From positions 1-58,600 of the forward strand of contig ONAI01000007.1 in NCBI GenBank assembly GCA_900315755.1: a stretch of DNA of 58,600 nucleotides, written 5' to 3'. Shown here piece by piece: positions 40,947 through 50,304 of this stretch. Every line of letters starts with the position of its first letter. Positions within the stretch are counted from its first letter, which is position 1. The notes under the pieces were generated by a model. It was given only the letters and a program-made list of their open reading frames with translations. It made no database searches and was not told where the DNA came from. Both the position numbers and the translations under genes were made by a program. Source of the DNA: an uncultured Ruminococcus sp. GTDB taxonomy: Bacteria > Bacillota > Clostridia > Oscillospirales > Ruminococcaceae.

Positions 40947-43762
40947 ATGAGAGTTTTTAAGCGAATAACAGCATTTGCGATGTCATTGGCGTTGACTGGA
41001 CAGGTTATATTGTCTGATGCAAGCGGTATAATGGTCTCGGAAAAAATATCAGTACCGGATAAGCTTTATTATGCCGACAGCTTCGGAGATGTACTGAGCG
41101 GTGCTGAATACACTATAATGGTGCGGCTCAGCGGAAAGCTTATAACAGCGGATAATACCGGCAATGTCATTCAGTGGGAGGACAAAGGCGATAACTCACA
41201 GCGCTGGAAAATAGTCAGCTGCCGTAACGGTATGTGCAGTATTCATCCGGCTTCGGACACCTCGCTGGCACTTACCGTTGAAAACGGCGACAGTACAAAC
41301 GGCAACAATATATACCTCTCTGCTTATGAGGACGTTCCTTCTCAGCATTTTATACTTCACCGTACTGATGATGCTTACTATATAACTGCGGAGTGCTCAG
41401 GAAATGCCGCGCTCGATGTATATGACATAAGCTATGATAACGGCGCGAACATTGACCAATGGGACTATTGGCAGGGTGAGGGACAGAAGTTCTATATTCG
41501 TCCTGCTGACGGCGACTACTCTCTCATACGTGGCGATATGAATATGGACGGCAAGGTAAATGGCTGCGACAAGATACTCATGGGGCGTTATATTTACGGC
41601 GGCGTGAAGAATTCTTCTGTTCCGGAATCATATATAGCTGATATGAATGCGGACGGAGTTTGTGATACTAAGGATTATCAGCTGATAACTGACTATATCC
41701 TCGGCAGGGATATTGATATTGAATCCCGGAGCAGGATACCGTATGAAAAGGAAGAGTCTGGAAGTCAGGAGTCGGCACAGAATGTCTGCGCGATCCCTAC
41801 ATATTCAAGGGTGAGGACGGTCTTTATCATATGCTTGCAACGGATATGAAGTCGTCCCTTGGCTGGAACAGCAACCGTAATCTTATAAGTGCGAAGTCTA
41901 CCGACCTTGTACACTGGTTTGATGAGTCGCTGATCGAGATAGCAAACAAGTATCCGAATATGCAGAATGCCGACAGAGCATGGGCACCGCAGGCTATTTA
42001 TGACCGTGAAAAGGACTCCTATATGATCTATTTTGCGGCGAGAGTTCCGGGAACTGATGACAGGACGATAATGTACTATGTTTACAGCAAAGACCTTAAA
42101 AACCTCGATACTGCACCGCAGCTGCTGTTTGCTCCGCAGAACGGAAACGATGCAATAGATTCCGATATAATCTTTGAAAACGGCAAGTATTATATGTATT
42201 ACAAAAACGAGACCAACAAGCGTATATATCTTGCGGTATCCGATCATGCAAGCGGTCCTTACAGTGAGATAAAGCAGGTCTCTGAGGGCAATATAGGAGT
42301 TGAAGGACCTAATATCTACAAGCTGCTCGGCAGTGATAAGTGGCTGATGATGTCGGATGCTTACGGTAACGGCTATTACGTTATGCAGGAGACTGCTGAT
42401 CTCGAAAACTTTACTACCGTACCGCGAAGTGAGTACAGTTTCGACTTTACTCCGCGTCATGGGTATGTTATACCAATAAACGGCGATCAGTATAATGCTC
42501 TTGTGAGCGCTTTTCCTTCTGACGGACTGAATCAGATAAACACAGGTATCGAGCCTGTGAACGTACATATCAATTTAGGTGATGACGCGGTTCTGCCGGA
42601 CAAGGTAACAGCCGATTACAGTGACGGTGCGAAGTCTGAATTCTCTGTTAAATGGGATGAAGCAGAGCGTAAGAGGATAGATACTTCAAAGCCCGGAAGA
42701 TATAGTGTTACCGGAAAGGTTATATCGACCTCAGATATTTACAGCGAGCCTTTCATAACAGAACGTGCAGATCCTTACATTGTTGACGGCGGGGATGGAT
42801 ACTACTATTTCACAGCATCTTATCCGGCTTACGGCAGCGTTGACAAGGGCTATGACAGGATAATCCTCAGACGCAGTCCGACCGTTGCCGGACTTGCCGA
42901 GGCGGAGGAAAAGGTGATATGGAAAGCTCATTCATCGGGCATAATGGCAAAACACATCTGGGCACCTGAGATGCATAAAATAGGCGGAAAGTGGTATATG
43001 TTCTTTGCGGCAGGAGAGAGCGGGAATATATGGGCGATACGTCCTTACGTTCTGAAATGTGACGGCGATCCGTATACCGGAAACTGGACAGAATGCGGTC
43101 AGATGCAGGCATCATACGGCGATGACGAGTCGTTCAGGAATTTCTCACTTGATATGACCTATTTTGAACACAACGGCAGACATTACGTCATATGGGCAGA
43201 GATAAAAGGCGATTCGTCACTGTTCATGGCGGAGATAGATCCGGCTGAGCCGTATAAGCTTATCTCGAAACCGATACTTCTCACAAAGCCTGAGTATAAC
43301 TGGGAACTCGTGAATAACCGTGTAAACGAGGGCGCGGCGGTACTTGTGACGGATGAAAAGGTATATGTATTCTTTTCGGCATCCGGAACAGGTTCGGAGT
43401 ATTGTGTCGGAAGGCTTGAAGCGGACACGGATGCAGACCTTATGGATGTAAAAAGCTGGCGGAAGCTTGACCGTCCGGTGCTTTCAACGAGCGATCTGAA
43501 CGGAGAATCGGGTCCGGGACACAACAGCTTTGTGGTTGACGAAAACGGTGATCTGCTTATTGTATACCATGCGCGGCCTGAGTCTCATGCTTCCGGAAAC
43601 TGCGGAACATACAACAAAGATCCGCTGTATGATCCTTGCAGACATACACGTATCAAGCGTGTCATATTCAACTCGGACGGAACTCCGATAATCAATCTTA
43701 GTAAAGAAGCTGAACTCTCATCAGCTTGTAAAATAGTAACGGCTGAAGTAACAGTCGGATAA
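40947..43762 (+). pseudogene. Frameshifted secreted enzyme: ricin-type lectin, dockerin and two GH43 domains
   Basis: Two overlapping frames together encode one ~940-residue modular enzyme. Frame 1 (40947-~41785) gives a signal peptide, a ricin-type beta-trefoil with QxW-like repeats (NSQRWKIV, SQHFIL, GQKFYI; ~40-190) and an internal dockerin (RGDMNMDGKVNGCD and DMNADGVCDTKD). Frame 2, readable from ~41786, continues LRDPYIFKGEDGLYHML, the opening of a GH43 propeller with its catalytic base Asp in RDPYI, then VEGPNIYK with the acid Glu. An Ig-like segment follows, then a second GH43 (RADPYIVDGGDGYYYF, LDMTYFEHNGRHY, VNEGAAVL). The switch at 41784-41788 equals one missing base (GTC-CTG read as GTCTG). 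Without it the product stops at 41849. It could be a sequencing error or a true mutation; no slippery heptamer is seen. Tandem GH43 enzymes of this kind are usually arabinofuranosidases. A GH30 gene follows 19 bases later. Confidence 0.85.
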
Positions 43763-43781
43763 ACAGAAAAGGGGAATTGGT

Positions 43782-45935
43782 ATGAAATTCAAAAGAATGG
43801 TTGGAACAGTAACAGCAGCACTGGTAATGCTGTCAGGCATGACTGTTAAAGTGCCTGAGAAGTCTGCACCGGCAGATGCAGCGACAGTCATAAGTCTTGC
43901 ACCAGAGAACAAGTACGAGATCAATGGCGGAAAGTTTCAGGGCTGGGGTACATCCTTGTGCTGGTGGGCAAACAGAGTGGGATACTCAGATGTACTTGCC
44001 CAAAAGACTGCTGACCTGTTTTACGGCGATGAAGGTCTGCGTATGAATATCGCAAGATTCAACATCGGCGGCGGTGATGATCCTACACATCATCACATCA
44101 CACGTACAGACTCGAATATGCCTGGCTATACCGTTTACAACAACGGTAATGTCACATATGACTGGAACGCTGACTACAATCAGCGAAATGTGGTTCAGAG
44201 GGCAATCAAGGCTTGCGGAGACGATATGATCGTTGAGATGTTCTCAAATTCACCTCCGTATTATATGACCAACAGTGGATGCTCAACCGGCAATAAGGAC
44301 TCCGGAAAGAATAACCTGCGTGATGACCAGTACACAGCCTTTGCCGAGTATCTTGCTGAGGTCTGTGCTCACTACGAGAAATACTGGGGAGTTAAGGTGC
44401 AGAGTATTGATCCTATGAATGAGCCATATACTAACTTCTGGGGAGCGTTCAGCTATAAGCAGGAGGGATGTCACTTTGATCAGGGCAATTCCGAGTCTAA
44501 GATACTCGTTGAGCTGAAAAAATCGCTTGATAAGAGAGGCCTCAATGACGTTATAGTCTGCGGTACTGACGAGACATCTATCGACACTCAGATAGATTCA
44601 TTTAACAAGCTTTCTTCAGAGGCAAAGAATCTGCTTGGACGTATCGACACTCATACCTACGGCGGTTCACAGCGTTCAAAGCTGAAGGAGACTGCTCTTG
44701 CAAACGGCAAGAATCTCTGGATGAGTGAAGTGGACGGCAGCGGCGTATCAGGTACAAATGCCGGAGAAATGGGCGCAGCTCTGTGGCTTGCAGAGCGTAT
44801 GGTCCTTGACTGCAACGAGCTCAACTGCTCTGCATGGATACTCTGGCAGGCTATTGATAATCATATCTCATCAGTCGGAATGAACGGCAACAAGGATAAG
44901 GGAATGGTCAATGTAAACGGCGGTTTCTGGGGACTTGCAGTCGCTGACCACGATAAGAACGAAGTCATACTCACAAAGAAGTATTATTCATTCGGACAGT
45001 TTTCGAGATACATCCGTCCGGGTATGACCATGCTTAAATCTACCGGAAATACTATGGCTGCATTTGACGAAAAAACCGGCAGACTTGTAGTTGTAGCTAT
45101 CAACAGCGGAAGTTCAGCGCAGGAATTCAACGTTGACCTCTCCGGCTTTGATGAGGTAGGCGTATCTGCACAGGTTATACGTACAAGTAATACCGAAAGC
45201 TGGAAGGATGCAGGAAACATTGCACTTAACGGTACTTCCCTCAAAACTCAGCTTGCACCTCAGTCGATAACAACATATATCGTTGACGGTATGAAGGGCG
45301 GTTCGTCACTTGAAAACAAGATAGAGATCAAGCCGGAAATGCTCAGCGGTACCGATTCGTGGAAGAGCATGGGATCATCCGATTTCTATAAGGCTTACGA
45401 CGGCAGCACAAGTACATACTTCGACGGCGTCGGCGATGGCTGGACAATGGTAGACCTCGGCAGAAACTACGATATATCAGCTATTGGCTATGCACCGAGA
45501 AACGGTTATGAGTATCGTATGGCAGACGGCAGATTTGAGTTCTCGCAGGACGGTATCAACTGGCAGACAGCTTATACAGTCAACGGCAAACCGCGTTCAG
45601 GAATGAATTACGTTAAGAGATTGGGCTGCGAAAATAAGGCGAGGTATGTGCGCTATGCAGTACCGAGCGGAGCGCCTCAGAACGAATACAACAAGGATAG
45701 TGTTTATTGCTGCAACATTGCTGAGATAGAGCTTTACGGCACACCGGAAGCCGTTAAAGGCGATGTGAACAGCGACGGATCAGTTGACACAGCAGACATT
45801 GTTATGCTGCAAAGGTATCTTTTCGGAAAAATAACGGAGATAAATATGGAAGCTGCTGATCTTTGCAGGGACGATAAACTCAACGGTTATGACATGATAC
45901 TTCTTCGCAGACTGGTGTTTGCAAAGGCGGTCTGA
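43782..45935 (+). CDS. Secreted GH30 glycoside hydrolase with discoidin-like and dockerin modules
   Basis: 717 residues. Signal peptide (~1-33), then a GH30 catalytic barrel with side beta domain (~38-505) containing FQGWGTSLCWWA, the acid/base Glu214 in DPMNEP and the nucleophile Glu316 in MSEVDGSG. A discoidin/F5-8C-like carbohydrate-binding module follows (~520-655; KAYDGSTSTYF, GWTMVDLG, ARYVRYAV), then a C-terminal type I dockerin (GDVNSDGSVDTADIVMLQRY and a second, weaker repeat RDDKLNGYDMILLRR). The sequence style is that of endo-beta-1,6-galactanases of GH30 rather than xylanases (inference). Together with the GH43/ricin protein upstream it suggests breakdown of arabinogalactan side chains at the cell surface. 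Confidence 0.9.
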   Translation: MKFKRMVGTVTAALVMLSGMTVKVPEKSAPADAATVISLAPENKYEINGGKFQGWGTSLCWWANRVGYSDVLAQKTADLFYGDEGLRMNIARFNIGGGDDPTHHHITRTDSNMPGYTVYNNGNVTYDWNADYNQRNVVQRAIKACGDDMIVEMFSNSPPYYMTNSGCSTGNKDSGKNNLRDDQYTAFAEYLAEVCAHYEKYWGVKVQSIDPMNEPYTNFWGAFSYKQEGCHFDQGNSESKILVELKKSLDKRGLNDVIVCGTDETSIDTQIDSFNKLSSEAKNLLGRIDTHTYGGSQRSKLKETALANGKNLWMSEVDGSGVSGTNAGEMGAALWLAERMVLDCNELNCSAWILWQAIDNHISSVGMNGNKDKGMVNVNGGFWGLAVADHDKNEVILTKKYYSFGQFSRYIRPGMTMLKSTGNTMAAFDEKTGRLVVVAINSGSSAQEFNVDLSGFDEVGVSAQVIRTSNTESWKDAGNIALNGTSLKTQLAPQSITTYIVDGMKGGSSLENKIEIKPEMLSGTDSWKSMGSSDFYKAYDGSTSTYFDGVGDGWTMVDLGRNYDISAIGYAPRNGYEYRMADGRFEFSQDGINWQTAYTVNGKPRSGMNYVKRLGCENKARYVRYAVPSGAPQNEYNKDSVYCCNIAEIELYGTPEAVKGDVNSDGSVDTADIVMLQRYLFGKITEINMEAADLCRDDKLNGYDMILLRRLVFAKAV

Positions 45936-46038
45936 TACAGCAGTATCAAGGTGTTGTATATCACGTACAAAACGAGCGGCAGCTCATTGTGAAACACGCC
46001 AAAATTATGAAATAACTGTTAATTTTAGATAGAAGATA

Positions 46039-46067
46039 TTGACAAACAGCAACGAATGTGTTAATAT
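46039..46067 (+). promoter_or_regulatory. Sigma-A promoter of the candidate small RNA
   Basis: TTGACA (46039-46044), 17-base spacer, TAATAT (46062-46067). No coding gene begins between it and the terminator at 46145. Confidence 0.75.
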
Positions 46068-46074
46068 ATACTTA

Positions 46075-46174
46075 CAGAATATTACTGATGAATTACAGTA
46101 ATTGTTGCATGATCTATTCCTCCTTAGTTATCATACCTCTTGAAAAAGGCTGCGGTTTTCCGCAGCCTTTTTTC
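46075..46174 (+). ncRNA. Candidate ~100-nt small regulatory RNA
   Basis: A self-contained unit lies between the GH30 gene and feoB: a near-consensus promoter, a perfect seven-pair 5' hairpin (ATTACTG 46081-46087 / CAGTAAT 46096-46102), about 40 unpaired bases rich in C and T, and a strong intrinsic terminator. The open stretch includes TTCCTCCTTAG (46117-46127) and later ACCTCTTG. The first resembles the anti-Shine-Dalgarno end of 16S rRNA and could pair with ribosome binding sites of target mRNAs. This is the layout of CU-rich regulatory RNAs in Gram-positives. Expression is inferred, not shown. feoB has its own promoter further downstream, so this is not simply the feoB leader. Confidence 0.6.
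46145..46173 (+). terminator. Intrinsic terminator upstream of feoB
   Basis: Perfect 11-pair stem (46145-46155 / 46160-46170) with a TTTT loop, continuing into a T run. It would end the small RNA and any GH30 read-through. Confidence 0.96.
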
Positions 46175-46202
46175 GTTTGAGAAGCCGCTTTATCCAGTGC
46201 TA

Positions 46203-46231
46203 TTGACATTATTGGCAAATTGAACTATAAT
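46203..46231 (+). promoter_or_regulatory. Consensus sigma-A promoter of feoB
   Basis: TTGACA (46203-46208), 17-base spacer, TATAAT (46226-46231), both perfect. No clear Fur-type palindrome is visible around it, so iron control cannot be read from the sequence. Confidence 0.9.
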
Positions 46232-46278
46232 TAATGTGTGAAGAATAAATACAGAAACATGAAAAGGAGTGCCAATTA

Positions 46279-48627
46279 ATGGCAACACTAAAAGAAATTA
46301 AGATCGGCGAAACAGTAAAGATAAAGAAGCTCAACGTTGATGGTGCATTGAGACAGCATTTTCTTGATATGGGTGTTATTCCCGGAACTGAGATAACTCT
46401 CGTAAAATTTGCACCTATGGGCGATCCTATGGAATTAAGGCTTCATGGGTATGAACTCACGCTGAGGCTTGCCGATGCAGAAAAAATAGAAGTATCCGAA
46501 AAGATCAATGCTTCCGGTACTTCTTTAAAAGTTTCAAAAGCCCCTAAGACTGCCCATCCGGGACTTGGTGAAGGCGGAAAGTTCCATCCGAAGGGTACGG
46601 GAAATCCGCTTCCTGATGGTACAGTAATGCGTTTTGCACTTGTAGGAAATCAGAACAGCGGCAAGACCACTTTGTTCAACAGACTTACCGGTTCAAAGCA
46701 GCACGTAGGTAATTTTCCGGGAGTTACAGTCGATCGCAAGGACGGTGCGATAAAGGGCTATCCTAATACGATCATAACTGATCTGCCAGGTATATATTCG
46801 ATGTCACCTTACAGCAATGAGGAGATAGTTTCACGTAATTTCGTGCTCAATGAGAAGCCCCATGCTATAATAAACATAGTAGATTCTACAAATATCGAGC
46901 GAAATCTCTATCTGACCATGCAGCTTCTTGAAATGAATATACCTATGGTCGTTGCACTCAACATGATGGATGAGCTGACTGCTAACGGCGGAGGCATAAA
47001 CGTAAATAAAATGGAAGAGATGCTTGGTGTACCTGTTGTACCAATATCAGCGGCAAAAAACGAGGGAATCGCTGAACTTGTTGAACACGCGGTACATATT
47101 GCAAAGTATCAGGAATGTCCGGTGCGTCAGGATATATGCGATAAAACTTCAAACGGAGGTGCTGTTCACAGATGTCTGCACGGAATAAGCCATCTCATAG
47201 AAGATCACGCTGAAGTATCAGGACTTCCGCTGCGTTTTGCGGCAAGCAAGGTAGTTGAAGGCGATGAACTTATAATCAAGCAACTTGTGCTTGACAAAAA
47301 TGAAGAAGAACTGATCGGACATATAGTTCTTCAGATGGAGAACGAGAGACAACTCGACAGAAGTGCTGCGATAGCTGATATGCGTTATAATTTCATATAT
47401 CGTCTGTGCGGAAGTACGGTTACAAAGCCTACCGAGAGCAAGGAACATATCCGCAGCCGTAAGATAGATTCGGTATTGACAGGAAAATACACAGCGATAC
47501 CTATGTTTATAATTATAATGTCGCTTGTATTCTGGCTGACGTTCAATGTTATCGGAGCATTTTTGCAGAATCTGCTTGAAAGCGGAATAGATTCACTCAC
47601 GGAAGCAGCTGATATTGCTCTGACGAATGCAAAAGTCAACAGCACGATACACAGTCTGATAATCGACGGAATATTTTCAGGTGTGGGAAGTGTGCTGAGC
47701 TTTCTGCCGATAATAGTAACGCTGTTTTTCTTCCTTTCGTTTCTTGAGGACAGCGGATATATTGCGCGAGTGGCATTCTTTATGGACAAACTCCTGCGAA
47801 AGATCGGACTTTCAGGAAGAAGCATAGTACCGCTGCTGATAGGCTTCGGATGTTCTGTTCCTGCTGTTATGGCTACGAGGACGCTTTCGAGTGAGCGGGA
47901 CAGAAAAATGACCATAATCCTTACGCCGTTCATGAGCTGTACAGCAAAGCTTCCGATATATGCGTTCTTTGTAAACGCATTTTTCGATGAATACCGCGCG
48001 TTGATAATGATAGGTCTCTATCTTCTTGGTATATTAACCGGAATAATCGCAGCGATGATCTATAAGTTGACCATATTCCGCAGCGAGGCAGTACCATTTG
48101 TAATGGAGCTTCCGAATTATCGTTTGCCGGGTGCCGGAAACGTAGCACAGCTGCTGTGGGAAAAGGCAAAGGACTTCCTGCAAAGAGCATTCTCTGTTAT
48201 CCTCATAGCCACAGTTATCGTATGGTTTCTGCAAAGATTCGATATGCATCTGAATATGGCTGATAATGCCGAAGTGAGCATACTTGCAGCCGCAGCGAGT
48301 ATCTTCGTACCGATAATGAAGCCGCTCGGACTTGGTGACTGGCGCATACTTGTTTCGCTTGTCAGCGGGTTCATAGCAAAAGAAAGTGTAGTTTCGACAA
48401 TGGAGATACTTTACGGTGAAGGCGTAGAAAATACGATGTCACCGCTTGCAGCAGCTTCAATGCTTGCATTTTCACTGCTTTATACTCCGTGCGTAGCTGC
48501 AATTGCAGCTGTCAGGAGGGAACTCGGCGGCAAATGGGCATTTGCACTCGCAGCAGTACAATGTGTTATAGCTTGGGTAGCAGCATTTGGCATCAGGCTG
48601 ATTGGATTAATGATAGGAGCAGGCTGA
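46279..48627 (+). CDS. feoB: Ferrous iron transporter: FeoA-FeoB fusion
   Basis: 782 residues. Residues 1-75 form a FeoA/SH3-like domain (LKEIKIGETVKIKKLN...ELTLRLADAEKIEV) fused to a full FeoB. The G domain has G1 GNQNSGKTTLFNRLTG, G2 NFPGVTVD, G3 DLPGIYSM and G4 NMMD. The membrane half has the two gate regions including SGRSIVPLLIGFGCSVPAVMATRTL and GDWRILVSLVSGFIAKESVVSTM. It imports Fe(II). A small Cys-rich membrane protein gene starts on its last base, forming an operon. Confidence 0.96.
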   Translation: MATLKEIKIGETVKIKKLNVDGALRQHFLDMGVIPGTEITLVKFAPMGDPMELRLHGYELTLRLADAEKIEVSEKINASGTSLKVSKAPKTAHPGLGEGGKFHPKGTGNPLPDGTVMRFALVGNQNSGKTTLFNRLTGSKQHVGNFPGVTVDRKDGAIKGYPNTIITDLPGIYSMSPYSNEEIVSRNFVLNEKPHAIINIVDSTNIERNLYLTMQLLEMNIPMVVALNMMDELTANGGGINVNKMEEMLGVPVVPISAAKNEGIAELVEHAVHIAKYQECPVRQDICDKTSNGGAVHRCLHGISHLIEDHAEVSGLPLRFAASKVVEGDELIIKQLVLDKNEEELIGHIVLQMENERQLDRSAAIADMRYNFIYRLCGSTVTKPTESKEHIRSRKIDSVLTGKYTAIPMFIIIMSLVFWLTFNVIGAFLQNLLESGIDSLTEAADIALTNAKVNSTIHSLIIDGIFSGVGSVLSFLPIIVTLFFFLSFLEDSGYIARVAFFMDKLLRKIGLSGRSIVPLLIGFGCSVPAVMATRTLSSERDRKMTIILTPFMSCTAKLPIYAFFVNAFFDEYRALIMIGLYLLGILTGIIAAMIYKLTIFRSEAVPFVMELPNYRLPGAGNVAQLLWEKAKDFLQRAFSVILIATVIVWFLQRFDMHLNMADNAEVSILAAAASIFVPIMKPLGLGDWRILVSLVSGFIAKESVVSTMEILYGEGVENTMSPLAAASMLAFSLLYTPCVAAIAAVRRELGGKWAFALAAVQCVIAWVAAFGIRLIGLMIGAG

Positions 48628-48785
48628 TGAATGTGATCGACGTTATACTTATAATTCTGATAGCATTGGCGATAATATGGGCGTTGAGAGTGTGTATACG
48701 CAATAAGAAAAACGGAAAGTGCTGCGGTGATTGCTCGTATTGCGCCGGCTGCGGTAAAGAAGAGGAGAAACGGCATGAGTTATAA
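48627..48785 (+). CDS. FeoB-associated Cys-rich membrane protein
   Basis: 52 residues from the ATG that shares a base with the feoB stop (TGATG). One membrane helix (VIDVILIILIALAIIWALRVCI) is followed by a cytosolic tail with a cysteine cluster (CCGDCSYCAGC). Proteins of this kind sit behind feoB in many Firmicutes and may bind iron or modulate FeoB; the function is not established. Confidence 0.92.
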   Translation: MNVIDVILIILIALAIIWALRVCIRNKKNGKCCGDCSYCAGCGKEEEKRHEL

Positions 48786-49209
48786 TTTTTATGGCTGGGA
48801 AACAGCTTTAGTGCCTGCTGTAAGCGACGAATTCAAAGGTATTGAAACACCTCAGCAGCTTTATGATATACTTACAGGTATATGGTGCGAATATACCTGT
48901 GCACCTCGTTTGCGGAGCGGATGGAGCAAGGAGAATATCACTCTTGGACAGTGCTCGATAACTGCATTTTTAGTGCAGGACATCTTTGGAGGAAAGGTAT
49001 ATGGAATACTGCGTCCCGGCGGTAACTATCATTGCTATAATGTGGTAGGTGATTCTGTATTTGACCTTACGAGTGAGCAGTTCGGGGATGAAAGACTTGA
49101 TTACAGCGATAATCCTGAACAGTTCCGGGAAATACACTTTGCCAAAGCTGAGAAACGTGAAAGATATGAGTATCTTCGCAGTGAACTGAAAAAGTATCTT
49201 GCAAAGTGA
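48775..49209 (+). CDS. YunG-like protein of unknown function
   Basis: 144 residues from the ATG at 48775, after GAGGAGAAACGGC; an upstream ATG at 48727 lies inside the Cys-rich gene. A central stretch GQCSITAFLVQDIFGGKVYGI followed by NYHCYNVVGDSVFDLT recalls YunG and papain/transglutaminase-like folds, with a candidate Cys and His pair. No signal peptide. Overlaps the previous gene by 11 bases, so it probably belongs to the feo operon; any role in iron handling is a guess. Confidence 0.78.
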   Translation: MSYNFYGWETALVPAVSDEFKGIETPQQLYDILTGIWCEYTCAPRLRSGWSKENITLGQCSITAFLVQDIFGGKVYGILRPGGNYHCYNVVGDSVFDLTSEQFGDERLDYSDNPEQFREIHFAKAEKRERYEYLRSELKKYLAK

Positions 49210-49228
49210 CAGATACGCAGTTAATAAG

Positions 49229-49270
49229 TGCTCCCCTCAGGAGTTATCCTGAGGGGAGCATATCATTTTA
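49229..49270 (+). terminator. Terminator of the feo operon
   Basis: Perfect 14-pair stem (49229-49242 / 49247-49260) with a GTTA loop, followed by TATCATTTTATC. It also stands downstream of the convergent glycosyltransferase gene. Confidence 0.88.
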
Positions 49271-49320
49271 TCATAAATTGTGTAATTCAGTATCGGAGCA
49301 TAAGCACATCGGGGGGAATA

Positions 49321-50304
49321 TCAGTTATTATCTTCGTCTCTGTGGTCCCATTTGTGTTTAACTACGAATTGAGGTGCTTTATTGATGCTTATGTAAGTTC
49401 TGCCGACATATTCACCGATTATGCCGAGCATCATCATTATCATTCCGCCGATGAACATAAGTATAGTGACTATCGAGGCGTAACCCATCATAATATCCGG
49501 ATTTACAAGCTTTCGGATTATCATTGCCAGACCAAAAATGAATCCTAAAAAAGCGCAGGTCAGACCAGAAAAAGTAGCAAATCTCAGAGGAAGTATCGAA
49601 AAGGCAGTGAAGCCGTTCATCCATAGGGCGATCAGCTTAGTGAACGTATAGTTTGAAGTACCGAACTGCCGTTCTCTGTGCTTTACCGGAACAGATGTGA
49701 TATTCCTTGTTACTCTGAGCAGCAGACCGCCTATATAAGGGTAAGCGCCGTCATATTTCAAGATCTCGTTTATGATATACCTTTTTCCTGCCCAGAAGCT
49801 TGTAACGCGGACATTCTTAGGCTGTCCGACCAGCTTTTCTGCCATCTTGACATTGACCCATGAGCCTATATTGCGATACCATTTCTGTTTTATCTCGTCA
49901 TACTTTCCGAAAGCCAGATCATAGCCTTCATCGAGCTTTGCTATGAGGTCAAAAACCGATTCAATAGGCATCTGACCGTCATCGTCGAGACTGATGACAT
50001 AATCGCCCCTCACTTCGTGGAAGCCTGCCATTTGAGCCGAAGCCTGACCGAAATTTCGTGGAAAATCCACACCAACTATCTTGTGGTCTTCAGCGGAAAG
50101 CTTCTCTATTTCCCTGAGAGTGCCGTCTCTGGAGTAGTCATTCACAAGTATTATCTCGTAATCGTATTCATCTTTTTTTTTCCGGACCTCGCCTCTTATC
50201 TCATCAACAACGCTTCTGATCGTTTTTTCAGAGCAATAGCAGGGGATAACGAAGCTGATTGTTTTTAGTCCTGATCTGCTTTCAGAAGCAGGAATACTGC
50301 TCAT
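49321..50304 (-). CDS. GT2 family membrane glycosyltransferase (GtrB/ArnC/DPM1-like)
   Basis: 327 residues. The GT-A domain begins ISFVIPCYCSEKTIRSVVDEI and carries LVNDYSRDGTL, FPRNFGQASAQMAG and the metal-binding SLDDDGQMP (DXD). Two C-terminal membrane helices (FSGLTCAFLGFIFGLAMII and ASIVTILMFIGGMIMMMLGI) end in the typical GEYVGRTY motif. Such enzymes transfer a sugar from a nucleotide to undecaprenyl or dolichyl phosphate. Third gene of a minus-strand operon with an ATP-grasp and a Gfo/Idh enzyme, 13 bases after the ATP-grasp stop. Confidence 0.93.
   Translation of the reverse strand: MSSIPASESRSGLKTISFVIPCYCSEKTIRSVVDEIRGEVRKKKDEYDYEIILVNDYSRDGTLREIEKLSAEDHKIVGVDFPRNFGQASAQMAGFHEVRGDYVISLDDDGQMPIESVFDLIAKLDEGYDLAFGKYDEIKQKWYRNIGSWVNVKMAEKLVGQPKNVRVTSFWAGKRYIINEILKYDGAYPYIGGLLLRVTRNITSVPVKHRERQFGTSNYTFTKLIALWMNGFTAFSILPLRFATFSGLTCAFLGFIFGLAMIIRKLVNPDIMMGYASIVTILMFIGGMIMMMLGIIGEYVGRTYISINKAPQFVVKHKWDHRDEDNN

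Follow-up and report, generated by a model that had tools for sequence, protein, structure and literature searches.

What is the short segment that lies on the plus strand between a GH30-dockerin gene (43782-45935) and a FeoA-FeoB fusion gene (46279-48627), and on which gene, if any, would an RNA made from it act? The question arises from 58,600 nucleotides of DNA from an uncultured Ruminococcus sp. (hereafter the window), in which the original prediction had placed a new small RNA at this position. As it had described, a perfect -35 element (TTGACA, 46039-46044) is followed at a spacing of 17 nt by a good -10 element (TAATAT, 46062-46067), with 10/12 matches overall, and both elements are kept in an alignment with the one relative found to carry the unit, G003. 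The complete unit of ~100 nt was likewise recovered, together with its strong terminator, which is absent from the terminator-scan list and evident from the fold. Judged from these elements, the unit appears to have the general anatomy of a trans-acting sRNA, namely its own promoter, an intrinsic terminator and no open reading frame. The second promoter downstream is presumably that of feoAB.

Table 1. Positions of the features of the small RNA unit, of the adjoining promoter and of the predicted target
Feature	Position	Strand	Basis or remark
Sigma-70 type promoter TTGACA-17-TAATAT, TG before -10	46039..46067	+	Promoter scan
Predicted small RNA, ~100 nt	46074..46173	+	Start placed by inference 7 nt past the -10
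5' hairpin, arms 46078-46087 and 46096-46106, loop ATGAATTA	46078..46106	+	Fold
TGATGAATT around 5' hairpin loop, predicted second target contact	46086..46094	+	Pairing prediction; unchanged in G003
CATGATCTATTCCTCCTTAG, anti-Shine-Dalgarno core, predicted main target contact	46108..46127	+	Pairing prediction
Intrinsic terminator GAAAAAGGCTGCGG-TTTT-CCGCAGCCTTTTTT	46142..46173	+	Fold
Second promoter TTGACA-17-TATAAT, 12/12	46203..46231	+	Promoter scan; outside the small RNA unit
Predicted target: 48-codon GTG-start frame, last of nine tandem small genes	L078 9567-9713, contig C80	minus	

The unit is confirmed as real. Neither strand of the window has a second unit that combines a promoter with a terminator, and no such unit was found in 60 shuffles of the window or in 2000 shuffles of the intergenic region, by criteria that were fixed after the unit had been seen; a plain promoter scan by itself was near chance (17 found versus 13.4 expected in 43000-50000). 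For the 101-nt transcript, the predicted fold has an energy of -31.3 kcal/mol (z -5.75; 0/200 shuffles as good), and the terminator must account for much of this energy. The predicted 5' hairpin is present, and the minimum-energy fold gives it 6+4 pairs. Downstream of it, the claim of an open CU-rich stretch of ~40 bases held for composition, the core containing TTCCTCCTTAG, and failed for openness, since TTCCTCCT belongs to a weak predicted hairpin (46109-46134) and occupies its loop of 8 nt. A frame of 30 codons, from an ATG at 46088, has no Shine-Dalgarno (SD) sequence, reads through the terminator and, by our own reading of the alignment, carries non-synonymous changes in G003; a small-peptide reading of the unit was ruled out on the first and last of these grounds, in agreement with the claim that no convincing frame is present.

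With Rfam 15, the window gave no match at the gathering threshold. At E <= 10 there were 22 weak matches, none above any gathering score (ar15, 20.6 bits versus a gathering score of 40), and the three with alignments shown were rejected as resting largely on the terminator. A BLAST search with a 151-base query found the full unit in 2/125 genomes of the genus, its own (G000) and G003, where the copy is 93% identical and has the same gene setting. Some match at E <= 1 occurred in 122/125 genomes; among the matches listed, all were partial except those two, and nine of the partial ones, besides the target described below, were set aside by eye as promoters, coding DNA or ordinary ribosome sites. 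The covariance search across Ruminococcus that had been proposed as a check, made with a model built from two sequences only (own and G003), returned 17 matches in 14 of the 125 genomes at E <= 0.1, both true copies included, and yielded no further copy. Of the 15 weaker matches, 13 were inspected and look like bare terminators, while the other two (one in G003, one in G014) lie outside the inspected loci; TTCCTCCTT occurs in none of the 13, and CCTCC occurs in two (L111 and L116), but within a terminator-like stem.

At the level of the family, 396 genomes, a sample evidently without G003, were searched with the first 77 bases, and at E <= 1e-4 the matches were confined to the own genome and a single ribosome site. 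A 25-nt match in another genus (G471) was discarded, as it overlies the ribosome site of an unrelated gene. The exact 26-base core pattern, run over a contig collection, recovered a single record, SVNH01000005.1, from the Ruminococcus flavefaciens MAG SIG534, which is taken to be G003; plasmid records held no match to the unit. Because no relative beyond G003 was found with it, the unit is not a conserved Ruminococcus RNA. The joint conservation of its parts, a further check run in part here, was borne out in G003, where promoter, hairpin, core and terminator occur together, and did not extend to further relatives. The unit would thus represent a new, narrowly distributed sRNA family whose predicted match to a single target is unusually long.

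Between G000 and G003, there are no differences among the 26 positions of 46074-46099 or the 35 positions of 46108-46142 (0/61 together), two blocks that were delimited after the alignment had been seen. In the outer 3' hairpin arm that separates them (46100-46107), 4/8 positions differ and the hairpin still forms (-5.5 versus -5.8 kcal/mol); the terminator (46143-46173) differs at 2/31 positions. For comparison, the rates are 97/920 in the GH30 coding sequence, 4/100 in the upstream spacer and 9/58 in the downstream spacer, so that the upstream spacer, too, has changed little. A hand estimate puts the probability of no change in 61 positions at ~0.005 with the pooled spacer rate (16/192) and at ~0.08 with the upstream spacer rate alone. 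In this one comparison, the unchanged blocks would fit selection on two contacts with a target, whose 100-nt start region is itself identical in the two genomes. Co-occurrence and conservation are weak evidence here, because they come from only two genomes that are closely related.

A candidate target was indicated by a weak BLAST match of the 151-base sRNA query (E 0.0142) on contig C80 of the same genome, which proved to lie on the strand complementary to a translation start, CTAAGGAGGAATGGATCGTG. The core is predicted to pair with this start through 20 contiguous pairs, 2 of them G-U, running from the SD through the start codon, and TGATGAATT is predicted to form 9 pairs with AATTCATCA, at codons 6-9 of the target mRNA. 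The predicted complementarity spans some 50 nt, bulges included, and the duplex has a predicted energy of -56.6 kcal/mol. A target prediction against ribosome sites had been recommended with the original claim, and it gave one outlier: across 304 mechanically defined candidate starts, target included, from 367 kb of the 2.45 Mb genome (15%), the mean was -23.5 kcal/mol (sd 4.5) and the next best -38.8 kcal/mol. In 14,618 100-nt stretches from both strands of the same 367 kb, a scan in which some energies failed, only the complement of the sRNA itself beats the target, and the best stretch overlapping neither sRNA nor target reaches -44.7 kcal/mol.

The energy was also compared with that of shuffled RNAs. 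None of 120 dinucleotide-shuffled sRNAs reached the target energy in a best-of-304 comparison (best -41.6 kcal/mol), nor did any of 240 sRNAs shuffled with TTCCTCCTT held fixed (best -48.6 kcal/mol); a Gumbel fit by hand to the latter set gives ~5e-5 for the sample and ~3e-4 for the whole genome, if that holds about seven times as many starts. Co-folding, in which the energy includes the cost of unfolding both RNAs, gave -36.4 kcal/mol for G000 and -28.9 kcal/mol for G003, versus a set of 74 control starts with a mean of -8.8 kcal/mol (sd 4.1), the best of which reached -20.5 kcal/mol. The G003 duplex itself is predicted at -50.0 kcal/mol, with pairs lost between the two contacts. When the own genome was scanned in full with a G-U tolerant version of the core, allowing at most three mismatches, 32 places matched (11 for a backward-read control), of which the sRNA itself and the target have no mismatch, none has one or two, and 30 have three; the 19 of these 30 that were scored range from -17.3 to -36.2 kcal/mol. 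Plain DNA identity between sRNA and target is not striking (E 0.0142 as above; E 0.169 in the reverse direction). In that reverse search, the 1801-base array around the target retrieved from its own genome, besides itself and the unit, five further matches, all of them weak (E 0.0453 to 0.589), one of which scored better than the unit (E 0.0453) and one the same. By these models, the unit would have a non-overlapping mRNA target with complementarity beyond chance. The suggestion that the core could block ribosome sites is supported, and comes with an independent small-RNA gene bearing such a core; its description as a mimic of the 16S rRNA 3' end stands for the anti-SD core and is too general for the whole, as the complementarity reaches well beyond the SD and singles out one gene.

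The SD of the target shares bases with the stop codon of the peptide gene just before it. The nine array products, similar peptides that are Cys-rich and precursor-like, have a common N-terminus, with the consensus YxFxKKxVxENxxNVxLYxEN, and a Cys-containing end, and the target peptide aligns with its eight paralogues. Encoded on the same strand are a radical SAM/SPASM protein whose best NCBIfam model is TIGR04334 (Clo7bot peptide maturase; E 4.4e-50, 170.6 bits, below the cut-off of 600) and a neighbour that resembles both subtilisin-like proteases and the peptide maturation proteins of TIGR04066 without reaching either cut-off. Also on this strand are one ABC/FtsX protein, two exporter-like ABC proteins and a protein with a weak match to BtrH_N. 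The target gene and the genes for the radical SAM/SPASM protein, the maturation/protease-like protein and the ABC transporters appear to form one operon. The wider region (L078 4096-19199, minus strand, C80), which ends with a gene for a BioF/serine palmitoyltransferase-like enzyme, has the appearance of a radical SAM RiPP-type locus, and no NCBIfam cut-off is reached in it. For 6/9 array peptides, target included, NCBIfam gave no model at E <= 1, and for the target peptide Pfam gave no family at E <= 0.1; because the tested peptides match no family model, the label of RiPP precursor rests on the neighbours, and we read the locus as a putative RiPP-type one of no named subfamily.

With one array peptide as query, matches were found in 2/125 genus genomes, the same two that carry the sRNA, and an array-peptide profile run over the 396 family genomes gave, apart from the own genome, only a short match that was partial (G400, E 7.5e-4). 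The other array starts show no unusual pairing with the sRNA, save one partial exception at -34.5 kcal/mol, so that there is no obvious control of the whole operon. That exception, the start of another array peptide (L078 10072-10236, minus strand), is the 7th best of the 304 and might be a secondary target. Elsewhere in the same genome, on contig C84 (L077), lies a peptide with a ELNKEQLGNVTGG stretch, which we take to resemble the double-glycine leader of a bacteriocin-type precursor.

The best explanation, to which we give a probability of about two in three, is a stand-alone trans-acting sRNA that silences the translation of one cysteine-rich RiPP-like precursor peptide. Since the sRNA is predicted to pair closely with the ribosome start site of the peptide gene, it probably represses that peptide, switching it off. 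The SD complement sits in the loop of the weak middle hairpin of the fold, and once the RNA was transcribed from its own promoter, this CCUCC loop would contact the target SD, while the 5' hairpin loop would contact codons 6-9; the two contacts would merge into a duplex over SD, start codon and early codons that would bar 30S subunits from the target mRNA, which may then be degraded. Computation shows how the unit is built, that one relative carries it too, that its complementarity to the target is an outlier and in what surroundings the target gene lies; transcription, binding in the cell and repression, as well as the RiPP nature of the peptides and any help from Hfq, whose gene is present in the genome, are what we infer. 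If true, this would provide a concrete and testable sRNA-target pair in a rumen bacterium, and a handle on the post-transcriptional tuning of RiPP arrays.

We consider it rather unlikely that the unit is a general anti-SD sRNA which, in the manner of csRNAs, acts on many targets and simply matches the peptide gene best. It is true that TTCCTCCTT fits the common SD, that the sampled starts average -23.5 kcal/mol, and that six targets are identified for csRNAs (PMC4507080). Such a reading does not account for 20 contiguous pairs with a second block, for the 0/240 of the SD-fixed shuffles, or for a second-best sampled start that is ~18 kcal/mol weaker. According to two reports (PMC3091779, PMC4507080), csRNAs, the cia-dependent small RNAs of Streptococcus, are 51-202 nt long, 32/61 of the predicted ones having two stem-loops, and they target translation starts, including that of comC, a peptide precursor with a dedicated ABC exporter; the action on comC was tested by mutation and restored pairing (PMC4507080). 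The unit resembles them in its small-RNA size, its SD complement and a predicted translation-start target of the putative peptide-precursor kind. The promoters of csRNAs have the CiaR repeat TTTAAG-N5-TTTAAG, to which the best match in 46000-46074 is 7/12 letters, and csRNAs have two to six genes per genome, whereas BLAST of the unit in its own genome gave a single copy at E <= 0.001, a search that diverged siblings would escape. Unlike csRNAs, the unit has no Rfam match, its complementarity to the best target is ~50 nt long, and its second contact lies in a hairpin loop. Being without a CiaR box and without a BLAST sibling in the genome, the unit is not a csRNA, and by analogy it would work like one.

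The silencing RNA preferred here also has features in common with other regulators. The sRNAs LhrC, RsaE/RoxS and AbcR (ar15) carry C-rich anti-SD motifs, and the unit has with them a pyrimidine-rich motif against the SD in common; unlike them, it has no Rfam match at the gathering threshold. Antisense RNAs of type I toxin-antitoxin systems have long complementarity to a small peptide gene, as does the unit, and one study has reportedly dealt with such an RNA encoded in cis. Unlike a type I antitoxin RNA, the unit lies on another contig with no overlap with its target, and its pairing is partial, with G-U pairs and bulges; unlike a type I toxin, the target belongs to an array beside a radical SAM protein. 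In the open literature, no paper was found that joins an sRNA with ranthipeptides and radical SAM, with lantibiotics, base-pairing and precursor peptides, or with sactipeptides and post-transcriptional control, and among the matches listed for small RNAs of Ruminococcus flavefaciens, the subjects were Cas13/CRISPR tools or other matters.

Because its minus strand resembles the target start over 44 alignment columns with two gaps, the unit may have arisen as an inverted copy of that start. A fuller account, in which a translation start was copied in inverted orientation and gave rise to a dedicated antisense RNA that selectively silences one of nine parallel radical SAM RiPP precursors, shifting the product mixture, is offered tentatively, as a possibility on the doubtful side; if true, the new sRNA may have originated from the very gene it targets. 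The same resemblance could be that of a relic, an inverted copy of the peptide-gene start caught by chance between a promoter and a terminator and having no regulatory role, and the minus strand does carry an SD and an ATG, yet by our own reading only a five-codon frame. We regard such a relic as improbable, given that the similar stretch is flanked by a promoter and a terminator on the opposite strand, that both differences in the 20-base core are A/G changes preserving G-U pairs, and that G003 keeps the core and loop block unaltered and has changes in the stem arm that separates them.

About as improbable as the relic is the reading that the unit belongs to the 3' untranslated region of the GH30-dockerin gene and supplies its terminator, perhaps yielding a stable fragment by processing; the two are on the same strand, the terminator lies ~207 nt past the stop codon, and the terminator scan lists no other plus-strand terminator between 45936 and 46142, but a 10/12 promoter stands immediately 5' of the unit. 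A transcription attenuator or riboswitch-like leader of feoAB, as promoter, hairpin and terminator just upstream on the same strand might suggest, is very improbable, since feoAB has its own 12/12 promoter past the terminator, no Rfam family reaches its gathering score, and the marks of the unit (CCTCC, a TTGACA-type promoter pattern and a T run) occur together only in the own genome and G003 among 28 feoB-upstream stretches (28/30 loci, namely the own genome, G003 and 26 others). The metabolic or iron-related control that had been proposed from the neighbouring genes is not supported, in view of that separate promoter and of the 2/28 stretches, and no sign of a link with iron or carbohydrates was found.

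Several minor observations concern this neighbourhood. The part of the window from 41756 to 46239, with GH43, GH30, the sRNA and the feoAB promoter, is 91% identical to G003, and its flanks are 95-98% identical, as if the segment had been exchanged in one lineage. Between the feoAB promoter and the gene, at window positions 46232-46239, G003 has an extra stretch of ~245 bases (L033, ~1383-1626), of which no second copy was found in the stretches compared; it is strongly structured (-104 kcal/mol for 257 bases), and the alignments flanking it overlap by 8 bases. Finally, a FeoB-associated Cys-rich membrane protein domain is encoded at 48489-48785, overlapping the end of feoAB.
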